This document shows positions 4,090-60,601 of a stretch of DNA of 64,000 bases, in pieces; positions within the stretch are counted from its first letter, which is position 1; the number at the start of each line of letters is the position of its first letter. A model generated the notes under the pieces. It had not been told where the DNA came from. It worked only from the letters and a program-made list of their open reading frames with translations, and made no database searches. The stretch is taken from contig NZ_CP011036.1 in the NCBI RefSeq assembly GCF_002221505.1, positions 3,162,001 to 3,226,000 on the forward strand. Direction: 5' to 3'. Source of the DNA: Pseudoalteromonas nigrifaciens. GTDB lineage: Bacteria > Pseudomonadota > Gammaproteobacteria > Enterobacterales > Alteromonadaceae. Both the position numbers and the translations under genes were made by a program.

Positions 4090-4772
4090 TATTTAACACT
4101 TCCTAATTGCTCACGCATTTGATCGATAACTTCTTGGTAATTTGGCTGGTTAAAAATGGCTGATCCCGCTACAAACATATCAGCTCCTGCCTCTGCAGCA
4201 GCGGCAATGTTATCGACTTTTATTCCGCCATCAACTTCTAAGCGTATATTGCGACCCGATTCTACAATACGTTGTTTTGCTTGGCGTAGTTTTTCTAAAG
4301 TATGCGCAATAAAGCTTTGCCCACCAAACCCTGGATTAACCGACATAATTAAAATAACATCAATTTTATCCATCACATGATCAAGAAAGCTCAAGCTAGT
4401 ACCTGGATTAAACACTAAACCAGCTTGGCAGCCATGATCTTTTATTAATTGTAATGTGCGGTCAATATGCTCACTGGCTTCTGGATGAAAGGTAATAATT
4501 GAAGCACCGGCCTCGGCAAACTGAGGAATAAGGCTATCAACCGGTTTAACCATTAAATGCACATCAATAGGCGCTTTAATGCCGTAATTTCTGAGCGCTT
4601 TACACACCATAGGGCCAATAGTTAAGTTAGGCACATAGTGATTATCCATCACGTCAAAGTGAACCACATCGGCACCCGCAGCAAGTACACTATCAACATC
4701 TTCACCTAGTTTAGCGAAATCAGCAGATAAAATAGAAGGGGCTATTAAGTATTTTTTTTCTGGGTTCAACAT
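4089..4772 (-). CDS. rpe: Ribulose-phosphate 3-epimerase
   Basis: Rpe interconverts ribulose 5-phosphate and xylulose 5-phosphate in the pentose phosphate pathway. The 227-residue TIM barrel shows the family segments [28 protein letters not shown] (metal-ligand Asp), [12 protein letters not shown] (phosphate loop) and LEVDGGI near the end. Its stop overlaps the gph start. In many gammaproteobacteria dam lies directly upstream; here two small genes on the opposite strand separate dam and rpe, so rpe must have its own promoter in 4773-4987. I could not locate that promoter convincingly. Confidence 0.96.
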
Positions 4773-4928
4773 AGTTAATCCGGCAATGAATAATATATTG
4801 CGTTAATGTAACTTAATTAATGATGTTACCCAAGTAATCGCGACAAATATAATGGCTTAATAAAAATAAAGATTATTGATAAGCCTTTATTTTCATTCGA
4901 CTTTAGAAGCTAATGATAAAATTTAAGT

Positions 4929-4956
4929 TTGTTATTTAAGCAATTTTTGTTATGCT
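4929..4956 (+). promoter_or_regulatory. Candidate sigma70 promoter for the 98-residue gene
   Basis: TTGTTA at 4929-4934 and TATGCT at 4951-4956 are 16 bp apart and lie about 30 bases before the ATG at 4988. The match is moderate in AT-rich DNA. Confidence 0.4.
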
Positions 4957-4987
4957 TAAAAAAGGATCAAATTATTAGGTTTAAATC

Positions 4988-23505: not shown

Positions 23506-23582
23506 AGAAACCTCTAGTTAAGGCCGCATCGCTCTCCAAACCCGGAGTCTGGCACCATACGTCGTTAAAACAAATTTATTGG
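23506..23582 (-). promoter_or_regulatory. rpmE: Candidate structured leader of rpmE mRNA
   Basis: Between the predicted start point near 23582 and the ATG, the minus-strand leader contains CTCC-GGGTTT-GGAG (about 23535-23548) nested between GGTGCC and GCGGCC segments. Gammaproteobacterial rpmE leaders form a known class of L31-responsive structures. Membership here is inferred from position and the hairpin only. Confidence 0.4.
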
Positions 23583-46301: not shown

Positions 46302-46408
46302 CGCTTAATATTTGGCTATACTCTTTTAGTAAAATAATAATAACAATAAACCGCCATTATTAGGCAGCTACATCGAGTAGGGTGAGGCTTTTGCCTCATC
46401 CCTCTCAC

Positions 46409-46440
46409 AGAACCGTACGTACGGGCCTCGTATACGGCTC
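46409..46440 (-). ncRNA. Group II intron domain V, copy 1
   Basis: On the minus strand the catalytic domain V starts GAGCCGTA and closes TACGGTTC with a two-base CG bulge, including the AGC triad. The distal stem-loop looks three bases shorter than the usual 34-nt domain V with its GAAA loop. Confidence 0.75.
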
Positions 46441-46463
46441 CTGTATTCTTCTATCCCTTCGGC

Positions 46464-47774
46464 TTATTTTCTAAACGCCGATTGAGCAAGCCATCCTGTA
46501 CTTACTTTTTCCATTGAATATAAACCTTGCTCCTCAAACCATTGGTTTGGCATCGCTACATTCGATAATGGACTTAGAGAGTTTCGCCATGAGTTCATTT
46601 TGATGAACTTAAATGGCGGCTTTTTCCCTAATTGTTTTAGTCGCTTATGCAACCTCGCTGGGTTTTTCCACAACCTTAACTGAATTGCCCTTAATCGTCG
46701 TCTCACCCACCTTGCCAACAAATTTAGCACTCGTTTACAATTGGCTATACTGAAATAATTTACAAAGCCGCGCACCACTGGATTGAGTCTTTTTATTACT
46801 TCAATTAAGTTCATGCCACTATTTCGCTTTGTTAATCGTTTAACTCTTTGTTTAAAGCCTTTGAGTTTTGTGGCTTGGATACGCGTCCAATTACTGCCTA
46901 TCTCCACTCCCAAAAATTTTACGCCTTCACTACTATGCGCTATGTGCGTTTTCTTTTCGTTGACTGTTAACTTTAAGCCTTTTTCGAGTATCTGAGTCGC
47001 TACTGTGAGTGCATTCTTGGCTGCTTTTTCTGTGCAGCATAAGATCAATATGTCGTCGGCGTACCTCACTATTCTGTGATTTCGCTTTTTCATTTCTTGA
47101 TCAAATGCATCTAGGTAGATATTCGCCAACAGTGGACTGATAACACCACCTTGTGGACTTCCTAGCTCACTCGCTTCCCAATTATTGCCTATCATTACTC
47201 CGCTTTTTAAAAACTGTTTGAGCAGTTTTAAGATGCTACCGTCTGTCACTTTGCTTTTGACGCTGCTTATGATCAAGTCGTGATCGAGTAGGTCAAAACA
47301 CTTCGACAGATCCATATCAACCACCCACTCACGGTGATATTTACGAATAAATACCGTGGCTTTGCTGATGGCGTCATGACAACTTCGTTTCGGCCTGTAC
47401 CCATAACTTGATGGGTGAAAGTCGATGTCGAAGAGCGGTTGGAGAATGTTCAATAGTGTTTGTTGTACTATGCGGTCGCGAACTGTTGGAATTCCCAGCA
47501 GTCTCACACCACCATCATCTTTCGGTATTTCTATCCGTTTGACTGGCTGTGCGCGATACTGCTTGCTTTGCAGTTCACCTTGCAGTTGTTTCAAGTTTTC
47601 TTCTAAATTCAAGGCGAACGCGGCTATGGACTGCCTATCTATTCCGGCCGCTCCTTTCGCTGCTTTCACTTTTTTGAATCCCTTGTACAGGTTATTAATA
47701 TCTAATAATTGCCCATACAAGCTGTAGTAAACTGTCATCAATTGCCTTTGCTTACGGTATGTCTGTCGTTTCAC
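46464..47774 (-). CDS. ltrA: Group II intron reverse transcriptase/maturase, copy 1
   Basis: The protein splices and mobilises its host intron. The 436-residue sequence has the reverse transcriptase fingers and palm (GIDRQSI, RLLGIPTVRDRIVQ, SYGYRPKRS), catalytic DMDLSKCFD at about 153-161, SPQGGVISPLLAN at 206-218 and YADD at 238-241, then the maturase X domain (about 300-420). No HNH endonuclease domain follows, so it would prime from nascent or lagging-strand DNA. The frame starts with GTG; an ATG at residue 13 is an alternative. It is identical to the copy at 56944-58254. Confidence 0.95.
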   Translation of the reverse strand: MKRQTYRKQRQLMTVYYSLYGQLLDINNLYKGFKKVKAAKGAAGIDRQSIAAFALNLEENLKQLQGELQSKQYRAQPVKRIEIPKDDGGVRLLGIPTVRDRIVQQTLLNILQPLFDIDFHPSSYGYRPKRSCHDAISKATVFIRKYHREWVVDMDLSKCFDLLDHDLIISSVKSKVTDGSILKLLKQFLKSGVMIGNNWEASELGSPQGGVISPLLANIYLDAFDQEMKKRNHRIVRYADDILILCCTEKAAKNALTVATQILEKGLKLTVNEKKTHIAHSSEGVKFLGVEIGSNWTRIQATKLKGFKQRVKRLTKRNSGMNLIEVIKRLNPVVRGFVNYFSIANCKRVLNLLARWVRRRLRAIQLRLWKNPARLHKRLKQLGKKPPFKFIKMNSWRNSLSPLSNVAMPNQWFEEQGLYSMEKVSTGWLAQSAFRK

Positions 47775-48473
47775 ATTGATGTATAGTGGTGTTCTTCATG
47801 AGGACATTAGGTGTGCTAGCCGAATGGCAATCTGCCTAAGTGGTCGCTCATTACTCCCATGCTCGGCCTTCAGTTCTCAGCGTCCACATTCCTGCTTAGC
47901 CGTCATCTCTTGCCTATTTCCGTCGAAATACATGTGAGCCTATACGTCGATACTCCTGATTTTCATACACTTAAAGAATACTTCCCCCCTTCGCAATCAA
48001 TTAAAACTTTTGATTAAAATTGACCCTATCAAACATTCTGTTGATAGTCGGCTTGGTTTTGTCCTCCACACCATTACTGGCTTTCATCGGCCTAGCCTTA
48101 CTCACTACTACGGGTTCATCTGCCACCTCACACCGACGTTAAACCTTGGGTTTCCCCTTGAGTTTAGGCCACTTATTTACACTAAGTTTAGATGCCAGGC
48201 TTCCCCAGTTACTGCACTGGCTCCCTGTTAGAAATCCCACCCTCAAGCACAGTATTGGTCTGACTAAGTATAGGGCGTTGCGCTATTTTGCACGCTGACC
48301 CACCAATACTGCCGAAACAGGTTACGGTTAGTTGTGTACCTCTAACTTCTTATGGCTTCCTTCAGACCCCACCGTTGGCCAGTGACGCCCTTGCCATTCA
48401 GATTATCTTCCCCTTAGTCAGGGTAATAAGGCATCTTTCAGCCTATCGGGTTTGCCAGCTTCGCTGGGCAAAC

Positions 48474-48509
48474 AAAAAGGCCAGCAAGTTAACACTTGCT
48501 GGCCTTTTT
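48474..48509 (-). terminator. Terminator of the M13 peptidase gene and intron 1 target
   Basis: A 16-bp stem AAAAAGGCCAGCAAGT / ACTTGCTGGCCTTTTT has a TAAC loop. Its minus-strand T-tract (48478-48474) abuts the first intron base at 48473. This is the 5' exon of group II intron copy 1. Confidence 0.9.
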
Positions 48510-53569: not shown

Positions 53570-53601
53570 CAGCACCTAAATAATATACCAAGGTGCGCGT
53601 G

Positions 53602-54975
53602 ATGATTAAACTTCCAAAATGGGATCAAACCCTAATAAATAAATATAATGTGTCTGGCCCACGTTATACATCGTACCCCACGGCACTGTCGCTAACTGAG
53701 GGCTATCAACAGCAAGACTTACTCAGTGCGATTGAGTCATCAAACAGCCGTGCATTGTCTTTATATATACATATTCCGTTTTGTAGTCAGCTTTGTTATT
53801 ACTGTGGCTGCAATAAAATTATTACTCGCCATCAGTCAAAAGCCGACACCTACCTTGATTTTTTAGCCATAGAAATTGCAGCCCAAGCGCCTCTATTTAA
53901 AGACTACACCCTAGAGCAACTACATTTAGGCGGTGGTACACCTACCTTTTTAACTACGCAGCAAATGAGCCGTTTAGTTAAACTTTTGGAGCTGCACTTT
54001 AATTTTACCGACGCCACTGAGCGTGGTATTGAAATTGACCCTCGATCGCTTGCCGATAACATGTTGGTTGATTTAAGTAACTTAGGTTTTAACCGCGTAT
54101 CATTTGGTATTCAAGACTTTAATGATGAAGTGCAGCTAGCAGTAAACCGTCCGCAAAATGCCGATACAGTAAAGCAGTTAATCACCCAAGCCCGTGAATT
54201 AGGGTTTAAATCGATTAATGCCGACATGATTTACGGCCTCCCATTGCAAACGCCACAAAGCTTTAAACAAACCATAGAGCAGTTGCTTGAGCTTAGCCCT
54301 GATCGTGTTTCGGTATTTAATTACGCTCACCTTCCAGAGCGTTTTGCAGCACAACGTAAAATTAAAGATGCCGACTTACCCAGTGCACACAACAAGCTAA
54401 CTATGTTTAAAAACACCTTAGAGCAAATGACTCAAGCCGGTTATCAATTTATTGGTATGGACCATTTTGCTAAAGTTAATAACGAACTCGCTGTGGCACA
54501 AAATGCGGGGCAATTACACCGTAACTTTCAAGGGTATACTACCCACGGAAACTGCGATTTATTAGGTTTAGGGGTTTCATCTATATCACAAATTGGCACT
54601 GCCATTTTACAAAATCAAAAAGAGTTAAAGCATTATTATCATAGTGTAGAAACGCAAAGCGGCTGTGCCATCACCAAAGGCATGCACTTAAGTGCCGATG
54701 ATGTAATACGCGCTGATGCAATTAAACAGCTTATATGCCAGTTTGAGTTAGATATGGAGGCATTTAGTGCCAAACATGCACTTAACTTTAACCACTACTT
54801 TGCTGATGCACTAACGGCAATTGAGCCTTTAATTGCTGATGGGATGGTCACTATTGAAAATAATATGATTAGTGTCACTGCTAGAGGTAATTTATTTATT
54901 CGTATTATTTGTATGTGCTTTGACGCTCACTTACAAAAACAGCTAAATGCAACGCGTTTTTCTCGGGTTATTTAA
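53602..54975 (+). CDS. hemN: Oxygen-independent coproporphyrinogen III oxidase
   Basis: HemN is the radical-SAM enzyme that makes protoporphyrinogen IX in haem synthesis without oxygen. With the ATG at 53602 (AAGGT seven bases upstream) the protein is 457 residues; the frame also opens at a GTG at 53593. Cys61, Cys65 and Cys68 form the CxxxCxxC cluster, followed by Cys70. LHLGGGTPTFL, IEIDPRS, RVSFGIQDF and ADMIYGLPLQT are family motifs. An FNR-type promoter upstream fits anaerobic induction. Confidence 0.96.
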   Translation: MIKLPKWDQTLINKYNVSGPRYTSYPTALSLTEGYQQQDLLSAIESSNSRALSLYIHIPFCSQLCYYCGCNKIITRHQSKADTYLDFLAIEIAAQAPLFKDYTLEQLHLGGGTPTFLTTQQMSRLVKLLELHFNFTDATERGIEIDPRSLADNMLVDLSNLGFNRVSFGIQDFNDEVQLAVNRPQNADTVKQLITQARELGFKSINADMIYGLPLQTPQSFKQTIEQLLELSPDRVSVFNYAHLPERFAAQRKIKDADLPSAHNKLTMFKNTLEQMTQAGYQFIGMDHFAKVNNELAVAQNAGQLHRNFQGYTTHGNCDLLGLGVSSISQIGTAILQNQKELKHYYHSVETQSGCAITKGMHLSADDVIRADAIKQLICQFELDMEAFSAKHALNFNHYFADALTAIEPLIADGMVTIENNMISVTARGNLFIRIICMCFDAHLQKQLNATRFSRVI

Positions 54976-55591: not shown

Positions 55592-56176
55592 TTACTTGTC
55601 TTCTTCGTCTAACCATTCGTTAGCAAGATCGTTCGATAAATACTGATCGAAGTCTGAATTACTTTCTTCGCTAAAGTCATCTTCAAACTCTTCTTCATCT
55701 TCATCCTCGATACCAAGCAATTTACACAATGCTTGATGACGAGCAATACGACTATTAAAGTACTTAGCATCTTTACCCGTTAGCATTTCGCCATTTTCAT
55801 GACGCTCTACTAATTTAAGTAAGCGCTCATCATTTTCAAGTGCTTCTAGCTCTTGCTCAGGCGTAAACTCTGGCTCTGCTGACTTTTTAAGCTCAACAGT
55901 TGGCTTTAAGTTACGTTTTATTTCTACTTTAGGTGCAGCTGCAACAGCTATTAATGGCACAGGTTTTTTACTGCCAATGCGTTTATCTTTAGTTCCCGTG
56001 TTACTTTTTTGGCTATCATCATTTAATAGCTCAGGGGTATTACGAGATCCAGGCTTAGCACCTTTGGTTTTTTTAACACGTTGCTCTTTTAATGCACGCA
56101 TTTCTTTAAGCTTATCTTGGCTTAAACGTACTGGTCCATTTGCTGGGCTTTTGCGTGACTTTTTAGTTCTACTCAT
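55592..56176 (-). CDS. yihI: Der GTPase-activating protein YihI
   Basis: YihI stimulates the GTPase Der (EngA) and so tunes 50S subunit assembly. The 194-residue protein has a basic, disordered N-terminus (SRTKKSRKSP, PGSRN), the conserved block DKRIGSKKPVPL, the helical EQELEALENDERLLKLVERHENGEMLT and a very acidic tail (DEDEEEFEDDFSEE). It lies between hemN and engB, as in E. coli. Confidence 0.92.
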   Translation of the reverse strand: MSRTKKSRKSPANGPVRLSQDKLKEMRALKEQRVKKTKGAKPGSRNTPELLNDDSQKSNTGTKDKRIGSKKPVPLIAVAAAPKVEIKRNLKPTVELKKSAEPEFTPEQELEALENDERLLKLVERHENGEMLTGKDAKYFNSRIARHQALCKLLGIEDEDEEEFEDDFSEESNSDFDQYLSNDLANEWLDEEDK

Positions 56177-56348
56177 ATCTTGATCATCTCACTTAAGAGG
56201 TTTTGGGCGAGGCGCAAATCAATGGGCATCGCAATGCTGGCCTAGCCAGAAGAATTCAGTTTGCGCTTTAGAGGCTGGGTTTCTCTATTTAGCGCTTAAA
56301 ACAGCTTACTGCTCGTTTTTAAACGGTGGCTATTGTAACAGGACAAAT

Positions 56349-56709
56349 AAAAAGGCGGTAGAGAAAACATCTCTACCGCCTACTAATCTGAGCGCCATTA
56401 TCTGGACACTTCTCCCTTCGACTTTTTAGTCTTTATTATTGTTATTATTTTTACCTATCCCTATTATTATTATTTTTACCTTCCGTGTAGCATTCCATTT
56501 TGTTTTTATTATTAAACTTCCATGAGTTTTTATTATTTTCGGTCTTCCTAACGCTTTTTTGTTATTTCCTTTGCTAGCACCAATTTGTGCTATGTAGTCG
56601 TGTCGCGCTACTGTCCTTATAGCTTATTCCATTTTGTTATTGTTTTTTGCGACAGGGGTTAATGTACCTGTTAATAATTTTGTTACAACTAATTTATATA
56701 TCTTTTATT
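56349..56709 (-). ncRNA. csrC: CsrB/CsrC-family regulatory RNA candidate (CsrA sponge)
   Basis: A predicted 361-nt minus-strand RNA runs from about 56709 to the T-tract at 56349. It carries nine GGA motifs in A-rich context (plus-strand TCC at 56413, 56458, 56482, 56494, 56519, 56546, 56567, 56614, 56628), against one GGA on the opposite strand within it. One GGA lies in a GCTA/TAGC hairpin loop, and ACAAAATGGAAT occurs twice. Such RNAs sequester CsrA/RsmA. The locus, upstream of yihI and facing engB, is the csrC position in E. coli. There is no coding frame. The name is by analogy; sequence identity with E. coli CsrC is not apparent. Confidence 0.8.
56354..56380 (-). terminator. Terminator of the CsrC-like RNA
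   Basis: A perfect 10-bp stem GGCGGTAGAG / CTCTACCGCC is followed, on the minus strand only, by TTTTTATTTG. No gene other than the proposed RNA would use it. Confidence 0.9.
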
Positions 56710-56715
56710 AAAAGG

Positions 56716-56721
56716 ATTATA
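56716..56721 (-). promoter_or_regulatory. -10 element of the CsrC-like RNA
   Basis: A perfect TATAAT on the minus strand places the start near 56709. No good -35 hexamer lies 16-18 bp upstream (GTAATG), which is what an activator-dependent promoter would show. Confidence 0.6.
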
Positions 56722-56777
56722 ACAAAAAACACAAAAACCATTACATTACATCAAGTTAACAATTTAATGGTTTTTAA

Positions 56778-56795
56778 AATAAGACTTATCTCACA
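56778..56795 (-). promoter_or_regulatory. GacA/UvrY-like upstream activating site
   Basis: On the minus strand TGTGAG-ATAAGT-CTTATT matches TGTAAG-N6-CTTACA at nine of twelve defined bases, centred about -78 from the predicted start. A further perfect half-site TGTAAG lies at 56819-56814. Csr/Rsm RNAs are normally activated from such sites. Confidence 0.5.
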
Positions 56796-56851
56796 GCTAT
56801 GCATGGTCAATGTCTTACATGAATAAAGACTATAAAAGTAATTTTAAGCAC

Positions 56852-58953
56852 ATCGAGTAGGGTGAGGCTTTTGCCTCATCCCTCTCACAGAACCGTACGT
56901 ACGGGCCTCGTATACGGCTCCTGTATTCTTCTATCCCTTCGGCTTATTTTCTAAACGCCGATTGAGCAAGCCATCCTGTACTTACTTTTTCCATTGAATA
57001 TAAACCTTGCTCCTCAAACCATTGGTTTGGCATCGCTACATTCGATAATGGACTTAGAGAGTTTCGCCATGAGTTCATTTTGATGAACTTAAATGGCGGC
57101 TTTTTCCCTAATTGTTTTAGTCGCTTATGCAACCTCGCTGGGTTTTTCCACAACCTTAACTGAATTGCCCTTAATCGTCGTCTCACCCACCTTGCCAACA
57201 AATTTAGCACTCGTTTACAATTGGCTATACTGAAATAATTTACAAAGCCGCGCACCACTGGATTGAGTCTTTTTATTACTTCAATTAAGTTCATGCCACT
57301 ATTTCGCTTTGTTAATCGTTTAACTCTTTGTTTAAAGCCTTTGAGTTTTGTGGCTTGGATACGCGTCCAATTACTGCCTATCTCCACTCCCAAAAATTTT
57401 ACGCCTTCACTACTATGCGCTATGTGCGTTTTCTTTTCGTTGACTGTTAACTTTAAGCCTTTTTCGAGTATCTGAGTCGCTACTGTGAGTGCATTCTTGG
57501 CTGCTTTTTCTGTGCAGCATAAGATCAATATGTCGTCGGCGTACCTCACTATTCTGTGATTTCGCTTTTTCATTTCTTGATCAAATGCATCTAGGTAGAT
57601 ATTCGCCAACAGTGGACTGATAACACCACCTTGTGGACTTCCTAGCTCACTCGCTTCCCAATTATTGCCTATCATTACTCCGCTTTTTAAAAACTGTTTG
57701 AGCAGTTTTAAGATGCTACCGTCTGTCACTTTGCTTTTGACGCTGCTTATGATCAAGTCGTGATCGAGTAGGTCAAAACACTTCGACAGATCCATATCAA
57801 CCACCCACTCACGGTGATATTTACGAATAAATACCGTGGCTTTGCTGATGGCGTCATGACAACTTCGTTTCGGCCTGTACCCATAACTTGATGGGTGAAA
57901 GTCGATGTCGAAGAGCGGTTGGAGAATGTTCAATAGTGTTTGTTGTACTATGCGGTCGCGAACTGTTGGAATTCCCAGCAGTCTCACACCACCATCATCT
58001 TTCGGTATTTCTATCCGTTTGACTGGCTGTGCGCGATACTGCTTGCTTTGCAGTTCACCTTGCAGTTGTTTCAAGTTTTCTTCTAAATTCAAGGCGAACG
58101 CGGCTATGGACTGCCTATCTATTCCGGCCGCTCCTTTCGCTGCTTTCACTTTTTTGAATCCCTTGTACAGGTTATTAATATCTAATAATTGCCCATACAA
58201 GCTGTAGTAAACTGTCATCAATTGCCTTTGCTTACGGTATGTCTGTCGTTTCACATTGATGTATAGTGGTGTTCTTCATGAGGACATTAGGTGTGCTAGC
58301 CGAATGGCAATCTGCCTAAGTGGTCGCTCATTACTCCCATGCTCGGCCTTCAGTTCTCAGCGTCCACATTCCTGCTTAGCCGTCATCTCTTGCCTATTTC
58401 CGTCGAAATACATGTGAGCCTATACGTCGATACTCCTGATTTTCATACACTTAAAGAATACTTCCCCCCTTCGCAATCAATTAAAACTTTTGATTAAAAT
58501 TGACCCTATCAAACATTCTGTTGATAGTCGGCTTGGTTTTGTCCTCCACACCATTACTGGCTTTCATCGGCCTAGCCTTACTCACTACTACGGGTTCATC
58601 TGCCACCTCACACCGACGTTAAACCTTGGGTTTCCCCTTGAGTTTAGGCCACTTATTTACACTAAGTTTAGATGCCAGGCTTCCCCAGTTACTGCACTGG
58701 CTCCCTGTTAGAAATCCCACCCTCAAGCACAGTATTGGTCTGACTAAGTATAGGGCGTTGCGCTATTTTGCACGCTGACCCACCAATACTGCCGAAACAG
58801 GTTACGGTTAGTTGTGTACCTCTAACTTCTTATGGCTTCCTTCAGACCCCACCGTTGGCCAGTGACGCCCTTGCCATTCAGATTATCTTCCCCTTAGTCA
58901 GGGTAATAAGGCATCTTTCAGCCTATCGGGTTTGCCAGCTTCGCTGGGCAAAC
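56852..58953 (-). mobile_element. Group II intron, copy 2
   Basis: This copy is offset by 10,480 bases from copy 1, in the same orientation, with the same 2102-base length. The ends shared by both copies are 56850 and 58958. It is inserted directly after the T-tract of the cytochrome c terminator, again in the sense direction. The base pair GT follows the 3' end in both copies. Its 3' end lies only about 60 bases upstream of the GacA-like site of the CsrC-like RNA. Confidence 0.88.
56944..58254 (-). CDS. ltrA: Group II intron reverse transcriptase/maturase, copy 2
   Basis: The 436 residues are identical to those of copy 1 at 46464-47774, including YADD, SPQGG and the X domain. No frameshift is present, so this copy should also be functional. 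Exact identity points to recent movement or gene conversion. Confidence 0.95.
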   Translation of the reverse strand: MKRQTYRKQRQLMTVYYSLYGQLLDINNLYKGFKKVKAAKGAAGIDRQSIAAFALNLEENLKQLQGELQSKQYRAQPVKRIEIPKDDGGVRLLGIPTVRDRIVQQTLLNILQPLFDIDFHPSSYGYRPKRSCHDAISKATVFIRKYHREWVVDMDLSKCFDLLDHDLIISSVKSKVTDGSILKLLKQFLKSGVMIGNNWEASELGSPQGGVISPLLANIYLDAFDQEMKKRNHRIVRYADDILILCCTEKAAKNALTVATQILEKGLKLTVNEKKTHIAHSSEGVKFLGVEIGSNWTRIQATKLKGFKQRVKRLTKRNSGMNLIEVIKRLNPVVRGFVNYFSIANCKRVLNLLARWVRRRLRAIQLRLWKNPARLHKRLKQLGKKPPFKFIKMNSWRNSLSPLSNVAMPNQWFEEQGLYSMEKVSTGWLAQSAFRK

Positions 58954-58980
58954 AAAAAAAGCAGCCTAAGCTGCTTTTTT
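58954..58980 (-). terminator. Terminator of cytochrome c4 gene and intron 2 target
   Basis: An 11-bp stem AAAAAAGCAGC / GCTGCTTTTTT with a CTAA loop. Its minus-strand T-tract ends at 58954, next to the first intron base at 58953. Confidence 0.9.
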
Positions 58981-59032: not shown

Positions 59033-59665
59033 TTAGTGTAAGCCACCTAAGTACTGCGAAAGTACTTCAATGTCTTTATCTGTTAATTTCTTTGCAATAT
59101 CTTGCATCACACCATTTAAATCATTTTGGCGTGTGCCATCACGAAATTTTTCAAGTTGCGCTTTAACGTAACCTGGATGCTGAAAAGAAACTTTTGGAAA
59201 TTTTGCAAGTGACGAGCCATTACCACGAGGGCCATGACATGCAGCACATCCTGGAATACCACGATCTGCATCACCTGCTTTGTAAAGTATTTTACCGGTT
59301 TCAACTACGTCTTTAGGCGTAGCTTCTTCGCTCATGTTTAGTGATGCAAAATAAGCCGACAAATCTTTCATATCCTGTTCGCTTAATGGCATAGCCATTG
59401 CGCTCATAACCGGATCCATACGACCTTTTTTGCCACCTGAGGTCATACCTAGTTTTAAGTCTTGAAGTTGCTTATAAATATAATCGGCATGTTGACCCGC
59501 AAGCTTAGGATAGATATTAATCGGTGCATTACCGTCTGGGCCGTGACAAGCCGCACACGTTACTGATTTTTCTTTACCTGCGTTTACATCGCCTTCAAAT
59601 GCTGTTGCGTTGCTTGCTGACAACGCACCAAGCAATATAGTTAAAGATAGTGCTATTTTTTTCAT
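59033..59665 (-). CDS. Dihaem cytochrome c4
   Basis: Cytochrome c4 is a periplasmic dihaem electron carrier that feeds terminal oxidases. The 210-residue protein has a signal peptide (about residues 1-22) and two haem-binding CxxCH motifs, Cys37-Cys40-His41 and Cys140-Cys143-His144, in duplicated class I domains. Axial Met candidates lie in MSAMAMPLSEQD and the matching C-terminal region NGVMQDIAKKLTD. Its place beside engB and polA is conserved in Pseudomonas and Vibrio relatives. Confidence 0.93.
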   Translation of the reverse strand: MKKIALSLTILLGALSASNATAFEGDVNAGKEKSVTCAACHGPDGNAPINIYPKLAGQHADYIYKQLQDLKLGMTSGGKKGRMDPVMSAMAMPLSEQDMKDLSAYFASLNMSEEATPKDVVETGKILYKAGDADRGIPGCAACHGPRGNGSSLAKFPKVSFQHPGYVKAQLEKFRDGTRQNDLNGVMQDIAKKLTDKDIEVLSQYLGGLH

Positions 59666-59932: not shown

Positions 59933-60601
59933 GTGCTCAAATCTCGTATCAAATATAATACCGCGTCTTTCGTTACAAGCGCTCCAGACATTACTAAATT
60001 ACCTGCTGATACGGGAATTGAAGTTGCGTTTGCCGGTCGCTCCAATGCAGGTAAATCAAGTGCTCTTAATGCACTTACCGACCAAAAATTAGCGCGTACC
60101 AGTAAAACTCCTGGACGTACTCAGCTAATAAATACCTTTGAACTTGCTGATGTTGATGACATGCGCCTTATCGATTTACCAGGCTATGGCTTTGCTAAAG
60201 TACCAATTGAAATGAAAAAGAAATGGCAGAAGTCGCTAGGCGAATATTTACAAAAGCGTCAGAGTTTAAAAGGTATTGTAATTTTAATGGATATTCGTCA
60301 TCCATTAAAAGATTTAGACCGTGATTTAATTAATTGGGCTATTAGCAGTGAAATTCCTGTTTTAGCGCTATTAACTAAAGCAGACAAATTTAAACAAGGT
60401 CCGCGTCAATCACAAGTACTTAAAGTTCGCCGTGAATTAAGCGCCCTTGATGGTGATATTACGGTACATGCATTTTCATCACTAAAAGGTACTGGCTTGC
60501 CAGACGTTGCCAAAAAACTTGATGAATGGTTTTTAGGCCCAGTTGTAGCGGTACCACCTGCTGAAAAAATACTTAACGATGACACTAACCCAGCAAGCTA
60601 A
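59933..60601 (+). CDS. engB: Ribosome biogenesis GTPase EngB (YihA/YsxC)
   Basis: EngB is a GTPase needed for late 50S assembly. The 222-residue protein has G1 GRSNAGKSS (residues 35-43), G2 TPGRTQ, G3 [12 protein letters not shown]4 LTKADK and G5 FSSLKGTG. The GTG start at 59933 has AGGAGAG upstream. A hairpin GAGC/GCTC lies in its leader near 59885-59900. It is divergent from cytochrome c4. Confidence 0.96.

Follow-up and report, generated by a model that had tools for sequence, protein, structure and literature searches.

A probable csrC-type CsrA sponge RNA gene upstream of yihI in Pseudoalteromonas nigrifaciens

Genes and features of the yihI locus

The window (i.e. the whole 64,000-nucleotide stretch of P. 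nigrifaciens DNA that was analysed) contains the gene order engB, cytochrome c gene, group II intron, RNA gene, yihI, DUF2489 gene and hemN. The RNA gene, a candidate Csr-type sRNA gene that is probably orthologous to csrC and Pf3, lies on the minus strand at 56346..56654 (about 309 nt, with the 5' end placed from a conserved promoter). On the same strand, about 170 nt beyond the RNA terminator, is yihI, encoding the Der GTPase activator (55592..56176, minus; PF04220, 112.7 bits); further on, and on the opposite strand, is hemN (53593..54975, plus; matches to Radical_SAM and HemN_C). On the other side of the RNA gene we found a group II intron with its maturase (56847..58958, minus, ends approximate to a few bases; maturase ORF 56944-58254), a cytochrome c gene (59033..59665, minus; "c4" is our own naming) and the engB/yihA GTPase gene (59933..60601, plus; PF01926, named from its position next to yihI and our own reading). 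The initial annotation had placed the RNA gene between yihI and engB. While yihI is indeed its immediate neighbour, the other neighbour is the intron and then the cytochrome c gene, with engB starting only at 59933. In many relatives, the cytochrome c gene is the upstream neighbour of the RNA gene.

Downstream of the cytochrome c gene is a terminator hairpin, and the intron is inserted just after it; the sibling genome G101 has no intron at this site. This 2.1-kb intron is present in two copies in the window, with 99.95% identity. The second copy is at about 46370-48480 on the minus strand, and each copy lies just after a terminator-like hairpin. A ribosomal protein L31 leader (RF03157, 59.5 bits) was also seen in the window, at 23510-23561 on the minus strand.

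We observed nine GGA motifs, which are probable CsrA sites, on the minus strand of the RNA gene (56413..56630; at 56630, 56616, 56569, 56548, 56521, 56496, 56484, 56460 and 56415). They fall within 216 nt, in agreement with the initial annotation, which had counted nine over about 220 bases, and the opposite strand has 2 GGA over 56716-56346. The number of motifs was only mildly above chance for an A-rich sequence (9 vs 5.5 in dinucleotide shuffles, P 0.04; 9 vs 5.8 in base shuffles, P 0.09). The case therefore rests on comparison between genomes, and it is conservation that makes the motifs convincing. The initial annotation had also seen no coding frame. The longest sense ORF in the RNA varied from 14 to 52 aa among the 54 aligned sequences, which speaks against a conserved frame.

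The genome of P. nigrifaciens has the partners that such an RNA would need, with one csrA (a single PF02599 match, 89.6 bits) and a uvrY (391.9 bits, cut-off 280). The RNA was also compared with the Rfam models for Csr-type RNAs, a check that the initial annotation had proposed; this check did not favour its assignment, as no Csr family reached threshold on the window RNA. The CsrC model (RF00084) gave 10.9 bits against a gathering cut-off of 61, and membership was rejected; with a score under the cut-off, the window RNA is not filed as RF00084. RF00018 had no match anywhere in the whole genome in the Rfam model search. A few CrcZ matches were seen (E 0.007-0.98), far under the CrcZ cut-off, and these were attributed to the A-rich sequence.

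Conservation, structure and control elements in Pseudoalteromonas

A DNA search found a homologue of the RNA in all 108 Pseudoalteromonas species genomes searched. Many distant genomes matched in parts only, the weakest over about 72-90 bases, and the plasmid collection had no match to the RNA. Columns were compared in an alignment of 55 rows, which leaves out L001 (from the own genome), L003-L030 (several of them duplicating other loci), L044 (where the contig ends at yihI) and L084 (where the RNA is split by an insertion). The counts out of 54 are without L066, which is truncated, and the alignment A1 consists of 37 of the 55 rows.

The initial annotation had asked for the GGA motifs and the terminator to be compared across the genus, and both were found to be conserved. 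All 54 aligned RNAs had 8, 9 or 10 GGA, with 1 or 2 on the other strand. When exact-column conservation was scored, the GGA triplets of the window were kept in a mean of 49.6 of 55 sequences, against 31.2 for other trinucleotides (P 0.0006). The intrinsic terminator (56346..56381, minus) paired in 99.5% of aligned cells. It has the T-tract that had been noted earlier, but its stem is 12 bp (56381-56353) and not the 10 bp given before.

At two loci, L084 (P. denitrificans) and L234 (genome G060), an insertion of hundreds of bases interrupts the RNA; in L084 it is made of repeated units, as judged by eye. In L074, which belongs to a second clade within the genus, the RNA and yihI are separated by a methyltransferase gene (4323-4976; PF13489, 78.6 bits). 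Coding-like stretches similar to that of L074 were seen by eye in L070, L076, L078, L081, L083 and L086; in other families, L203, L214 and L223 also have such stretches after the GGA cluster.

The window RNA is predicted to fold more stably than its shuffled versions (z -3.0 against 100 shuffles). Its 5' part would form a closing stem, UGUCGC (56654-56649) with GCGACA (56606-56601), spanning 56601..56654 on the minus strand and enclosing a hairpin, GCUAU-AAGGACA-GUAGC (56623-56607, minus), with a GGA in the loop. A closing stem of at least 6 bp could be formed in 52 of the 54 sequences, as compared to 138 of 1080 shuffled controls. All 5 pairs of the inner GGA hairpin had changes on both sides. 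Pairing held in only 77.5% of the hairpin's cells, however, and for stems of at least 5 bp in the GGA-hairpin region there was little excess over the shuffled sequences (44/54 vs 325/540). A variable hairpin, UAGCAC with GUGCUA (56575..56592, minus), precedes the GGA at 56569; a stem of at least 6 bp was present in 50 of 54 sequences vs 264 of 540 shuffled ones, a moderate excess, and 25 distinct stems were found.

RNAalifold on alignment A1 gave a poor consensus, with a covariation term of -0.87. In our view this is due to misalignment of the 5' hairpins. We then counted pairs in five named helices, which were chosen by hand, leaning on the window fold. In these helices 95.0% of the cells pair, and the covariation score was 0.210 as compared to 0.129 for shuffled and at most 0.074 for slid controls. 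In the predicted fold, the GGA motifs of the window have unpaired probabilities of 0.56-0.99, and GGA was only slightly less paired than other triplets (0.66 vs 0.59 unpaired).

The predicted promoter is well conserved. The -35 element TTGTAA (56683..56688, minus) was identical in 55 of 55 sequences. It is followed, after a 16-bp spacer, by a -10 element of the form TAnATT (56661..56666, minus), which reads TACATT in the window and in the alignment is TAAATT in 35, TAGATT in 18 and TACATT in 2 of the 55. The TGTCGC at the inferred start of the RNA was kept in 54 of 55 sequences. The perfect TATAAT of the initial annotation is present (56716..56721, minus), but it is probably not the promoter: just 2 of 55 sequences (the window and the near-identical sibling L002) have it exactly at this position of the alignment, and it was therefore rejected. 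A TATAAT within about 36 columns of the site occurred in 7 of 55.

Upstream of the promoter are two sites resembling those bound by UvrY/SirA. The proximal one, TGTGAGATAAGTCTTATT (TGTGAG-N6-CTTATT; 56778..56795, minus), had been likened to a UvrY/GacA box, and it matches a UvrY consensus at 13 of 16 informative positions (P 0.0085 against shuffles). A better site had been missed. This distal site, TGTAAGACATTGACCATG (56802..56819, minus), lies 165 nt before the inferred start and begins about 30 nt beyond the intron end, intact. The UvrY/SirA sites upstream of csrC are known from ChIP-exo in Salmonella (TGTGAGACATTGACCATT; PMC4682653) and from ChIP-exo and a DNase I footprint in E. coli (TGTGAGACATTGCCGATA; PMC4682653). 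The distal site of the window is identical to the Salmonella site at 16 of 18 positions and to the E. coli site at 14 of 18. In E. coli, the site is about 168 nt before the annotated csrC start, and the 165 nt seen in the window was kept in 53 of 54 aligned sequences. Compared with the Salmonella site, 41 of 54 genus sequences matched at 15 or more of the 18 positions, and 6 of 54 at 11 or fewer.

When the 4.27-Mb genome of P. nigrifaciens was searched with the Salmonella site, allowing up to 3 mismatches, the only match was the one at window 56819-56802, just upstream of the RNA. The same pattern read backwards had 8 matches in this genome, so matches of that quality do arise by chance; that the sole forward match should fall at this very place is not expected by chance. 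The site is also found at this locus in P. fuliginea and in the sibling G101, each of which has one further match, with 3 mismatches, elsewhere in its genome. A near-perfect palindromic UvrY-type box was not found at the window locus at up to 1 mismatch. Such boxes were seen in nine relatives (G018, G031, G043, G044, G045, G072, G075, G098 and G099), where they precede the RNA segment that matched by roughly 150-290 nt.

The earlier proposal of a Csr-type sponge RNA thus gained from genus-wide conservation, structure, the terminator, UvrY-like sites and the presence of csrA and uvrY in the same genome. With multiple conserved GGA, a csrA, a UvrY-type site together with uvrY, and a predicted promoter and terminator of its own, the RNA has the sequence features of the Csr/Rsm sponge class, and the minus-strand RNA very probably soaks up the global regulator CsrA.

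Relationship to csrC

In E. coli the gene order is yihA (engB), csrC, yihI and hemN, with csrC on the strand of yihI, and Salmonella csrC is reported to be flanked by yihA and yihI too, with its orientation unchanged (PMC2515195). The window RNA has the csrC location: it is between engB/yihA and yihI on the strand of yihI, with hemN beyond. The engB gene, the RNA and yihI keep their E. coli orientations, whereas hemN is reversed. A predicted UvrY/SirA inverted repeat of the csrC type is also present, at about -165.

We examined how far this arrangement extends. A search for YihI found a match in only 3 of 274 genomes at class level, and the order was used instead, where 152 of 197 genomes had a match. 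Of the regions upstream of yihI in these 152, 79 were examined (the window's own genome not among them), and the 51 in which engB or the cytochrome c gene could be located were tested for GGA clusters, with candidates not filtered for coding frames. A cluster at P <=0.01 (base shuffles) was found in 16 of the 51 loci, from families f5, f6, f187, f190 and f194. Between engB or the cytochrome c gene and yihI, the other 35 had no significant cluster, including all 7 tested loci of other genera in the window's own family, all 3 of f2, all 4 of f180 and all 5 of f9. Either the GGA test is insensitive, or the RNA has been lost or has moved in several lineages.

A DNA search with the single sequence had a match in only 7 of 59 family genomes, two of them of the window's genus with its own included. 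A profile from the genus alignment reached further: 24 of 107 targets (which include one duplicate pair, L097 and L186) had a hit at E <=0.001, on yihI's strand and upstream of yihI. These hits were in Rheinheimera, Alkalimonas, Alishewanella, two unclassified bacteria and other genera of families f1 and f6; the reversed-sequence controls yielded a single hit apiece, at E 0.15 and E 0.61. After iteration there were 48 hits at E <=0.001, all on the strand of yihI and including f184, f185, f190 and f187, and no hit at E 1 on the reversed sequences. The third-round profile was without E. coli; it held one f187 sequence (L159), which had entered at round 2. With this profile, E. coli csrC was recovered from the UvrY site to the terminator (E 7.7e-6; locus 4359-4777), but E. 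coli csrB reached only E 0.26 and the Pf1-like locus of P. nigrifaciens E 1. Five other f187 loci were at E 0.001-0.04 with the same profile, and Rfam scores them as CsrC or near it. Descent of the sequence can thus be followed through intermediates by the iterated profile.

The proposal of a csrC orthologue by position was therefore borne out, and it is strengthened by the UvrY/SirA site at a nearly equal distance and by the appearance of E. coli csrC among the profile hits. Place and control switch together suggest that the window RNA and the csrC of E. coli and Salmonella are one and the same gene. Position and switch offer a way to trace Csr sponge RNAs that have diverged beyond the Rfam models, and such RNAs can be missed when single-sequence similarity alone is used.

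A real Csr sponge RNA need not descend from csrC. A copy might have arrived at this locus, or replaced the gene there, with the UvrY site convergent or transferred along with it. The RNA bodies are too diverged for the Rfam CsrC model, Csr sRNAs are reported to duplicate and relocate in vibrios (PMC6262261), and many of the order-wide loci had no significant GGA cluster here. We nevertheless consider such an origin unlikely, given that engB, the RNA and yihI have the same neighbours and orientation as in E. coli, that the UvrY site has 16/18 identity to that of Salmonella at a distance like that of E. coli, and that profile hits at this position extend step by step across intermediate families as far as E. 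coli csrC but not csrB. It is still less probable that the locus yields no free sRNA but mostly an extended 5' leader for yihI, or read-through of the group II intron, which is transcribed in the same direction. The RNA and yihI do share a strand, but the 12-bp terminator with its T-tract would end the RNA about 170 nt before yihI, L074 has the methyltransferase gene in between, and the sibling genome is without the intron. That the region is a functionless A-rich spacer whose GGA motifs arose by chance, though in keeping with the number of motifs alone (P 0.04-0.09), can hardly be reconciled with presence throughout the genus sample, covariation, and a conserved promoter and UvrY site.

Computation shows the RNA to be conserved and structured, with control elements and a syntenic location, and it shows csrA and uvrY in the same genome. 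We are highly confident that the locus is csrC/Pf3, a gene for a UvrY-activated CsrA sponge RNA of about 309 nt sharing common ancestry with csrC of E. coli and Salmonella. In the mechanism that we propose, UvrY, activated by BarA and phosphorylated, would bind at 56819-56802, perhaps with assistance from the site at 56795-56778, and activate the conserved promoter at 56688-56661. The RNA would run from near 56654 to the intrinsic terminator. Several CsrA dimers would bind to its GGA motifs, part of which are presented in hairpin loops and the rest in single-stranded, A-rich spacers, and titration of CsrA would free its mRNA targets in this strain. In relatives, such binding and control have been demonstrated by others.

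Pf3, Pf1 and other Csr RNAs

Three verified Csr sRNAs, Pf1-Pf3, have been described in P. fuliginea (PMC11882849; PMC9927453). Pf3 of strain BSW20308 is an intergenic RNA with nine GGA and a working promoter (PMC11882849, 2025). It was reported to bind CsrA in gel shifts (EMSA), to be enriched with CsrA in RIP-seq and to raise glycogen in E. coli (PMC11882849). The window-type locus of P. fuliginea KMM 216 (L042) also has nine GGA and is 91% identical to the window over aligned columns. It is distinct from the Pf1 and Pf2 loci of P. fuliginea. The published Pf1 box was found at another locus (L118, 22 GGA in 350 nt), and a Pf2-like locus has 24 GGA in 650 nt, as compared to the 21 published for Pf2. 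The P. nigrifaciens genome has a Pf1-like locus of its own (L125, 18 GGA in 350 nt) and a Pf2-like one (18 GGA in 650 nt). Since the KMM 216 locus has nine GGA and Pf1 and Pf2 lie elsewhere, we infer that the window RNA is very probably the Pf3 orthologue. The RNA itself is therefore very probably not new, its orthologue having been published (PMC11882849). The portions of PMC11882849 covered here do not link Pf3 to csrC orthology or synteny, and in the portions covered of the open-licence literature on csrC/csrB loci and Pseudoalteromonas Csr sRNAs we recognised no work making this link. With the present comparison, a verified marine sRNA, Pf3, can be tied by inference to E. coli csrC.

The Pf1 locus (L152 in P. 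fuliginea; L125 in P. nigrifaciens) reads queF-syd-..-GNAT-Pf1-DUF3301-DUF3549-yqcC-truC-yqcA, where queF, syd, yqcC, truC and yqcA are our own reading of the translations; the E. coli counterpart is queF-syd-csrB-yqcC-truC-yqcA. As its neighbours are like those of E. coli csrB, Pf1 may be csrB, and not a de novo gene as published. We think it likely that the window RNA (Pf3) and Pf1 are csrC and csrB, respectively, each handed down at its E. coli locus, with the UvrY-binding DNA kept better than the RNA body. If true, not every Csr sRNA of Pseudoalteromonas is an invention of the genus, and the published suggestion of a de novo origin for Pf1 would have to be revised.

Among marine gammaproteobacteria, CsrB1 and CsrB2 of Shewanella, the csrB copies of Vibrio (csrB/C/D in V. 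cholerae) and Aln1a-c of Alteromonas have been reported as Csr sponge sRNAs, as we propose for the window RNA; those of Shewanella and Alteromonas are at other loci, and in the sources covered they are given by locus tag only. Pf1, described as CsrB-like, is likewise a Csr sponge in P. fuliginea with a UvrY-type box and many GGA, but it lies at another locus, with neighbours that match those of E. coli csrB. Pf3 is from the same genus as the window RNA and, as published, is also intergenic with nine GGA. The likeness was drawn through the KMM 216 locus and the published description of the BSW20308 RNA. Matches to Pf3 were reported in 470 of 672 genomes (PMC11882849), as compared to the homologue of the window RNA in 108 of 108 species genomes here. 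CsrC of E. coli is reported to have 14 GGA (PMC11882849) vs 9 in the window RNA, which is under the Rfam cut-off for CsrC, is separated from engB by a cytochrome c gene and has hemN reversed. It resembles CsrC (RF00084) in being a GGA-rich RNA with an intrinsic terminator, encoded between yihA/engB and yihI on the strand of yihI, with a UvrY/SirA site that has 14-16 of 18 positions identical and lies at a similar distance.
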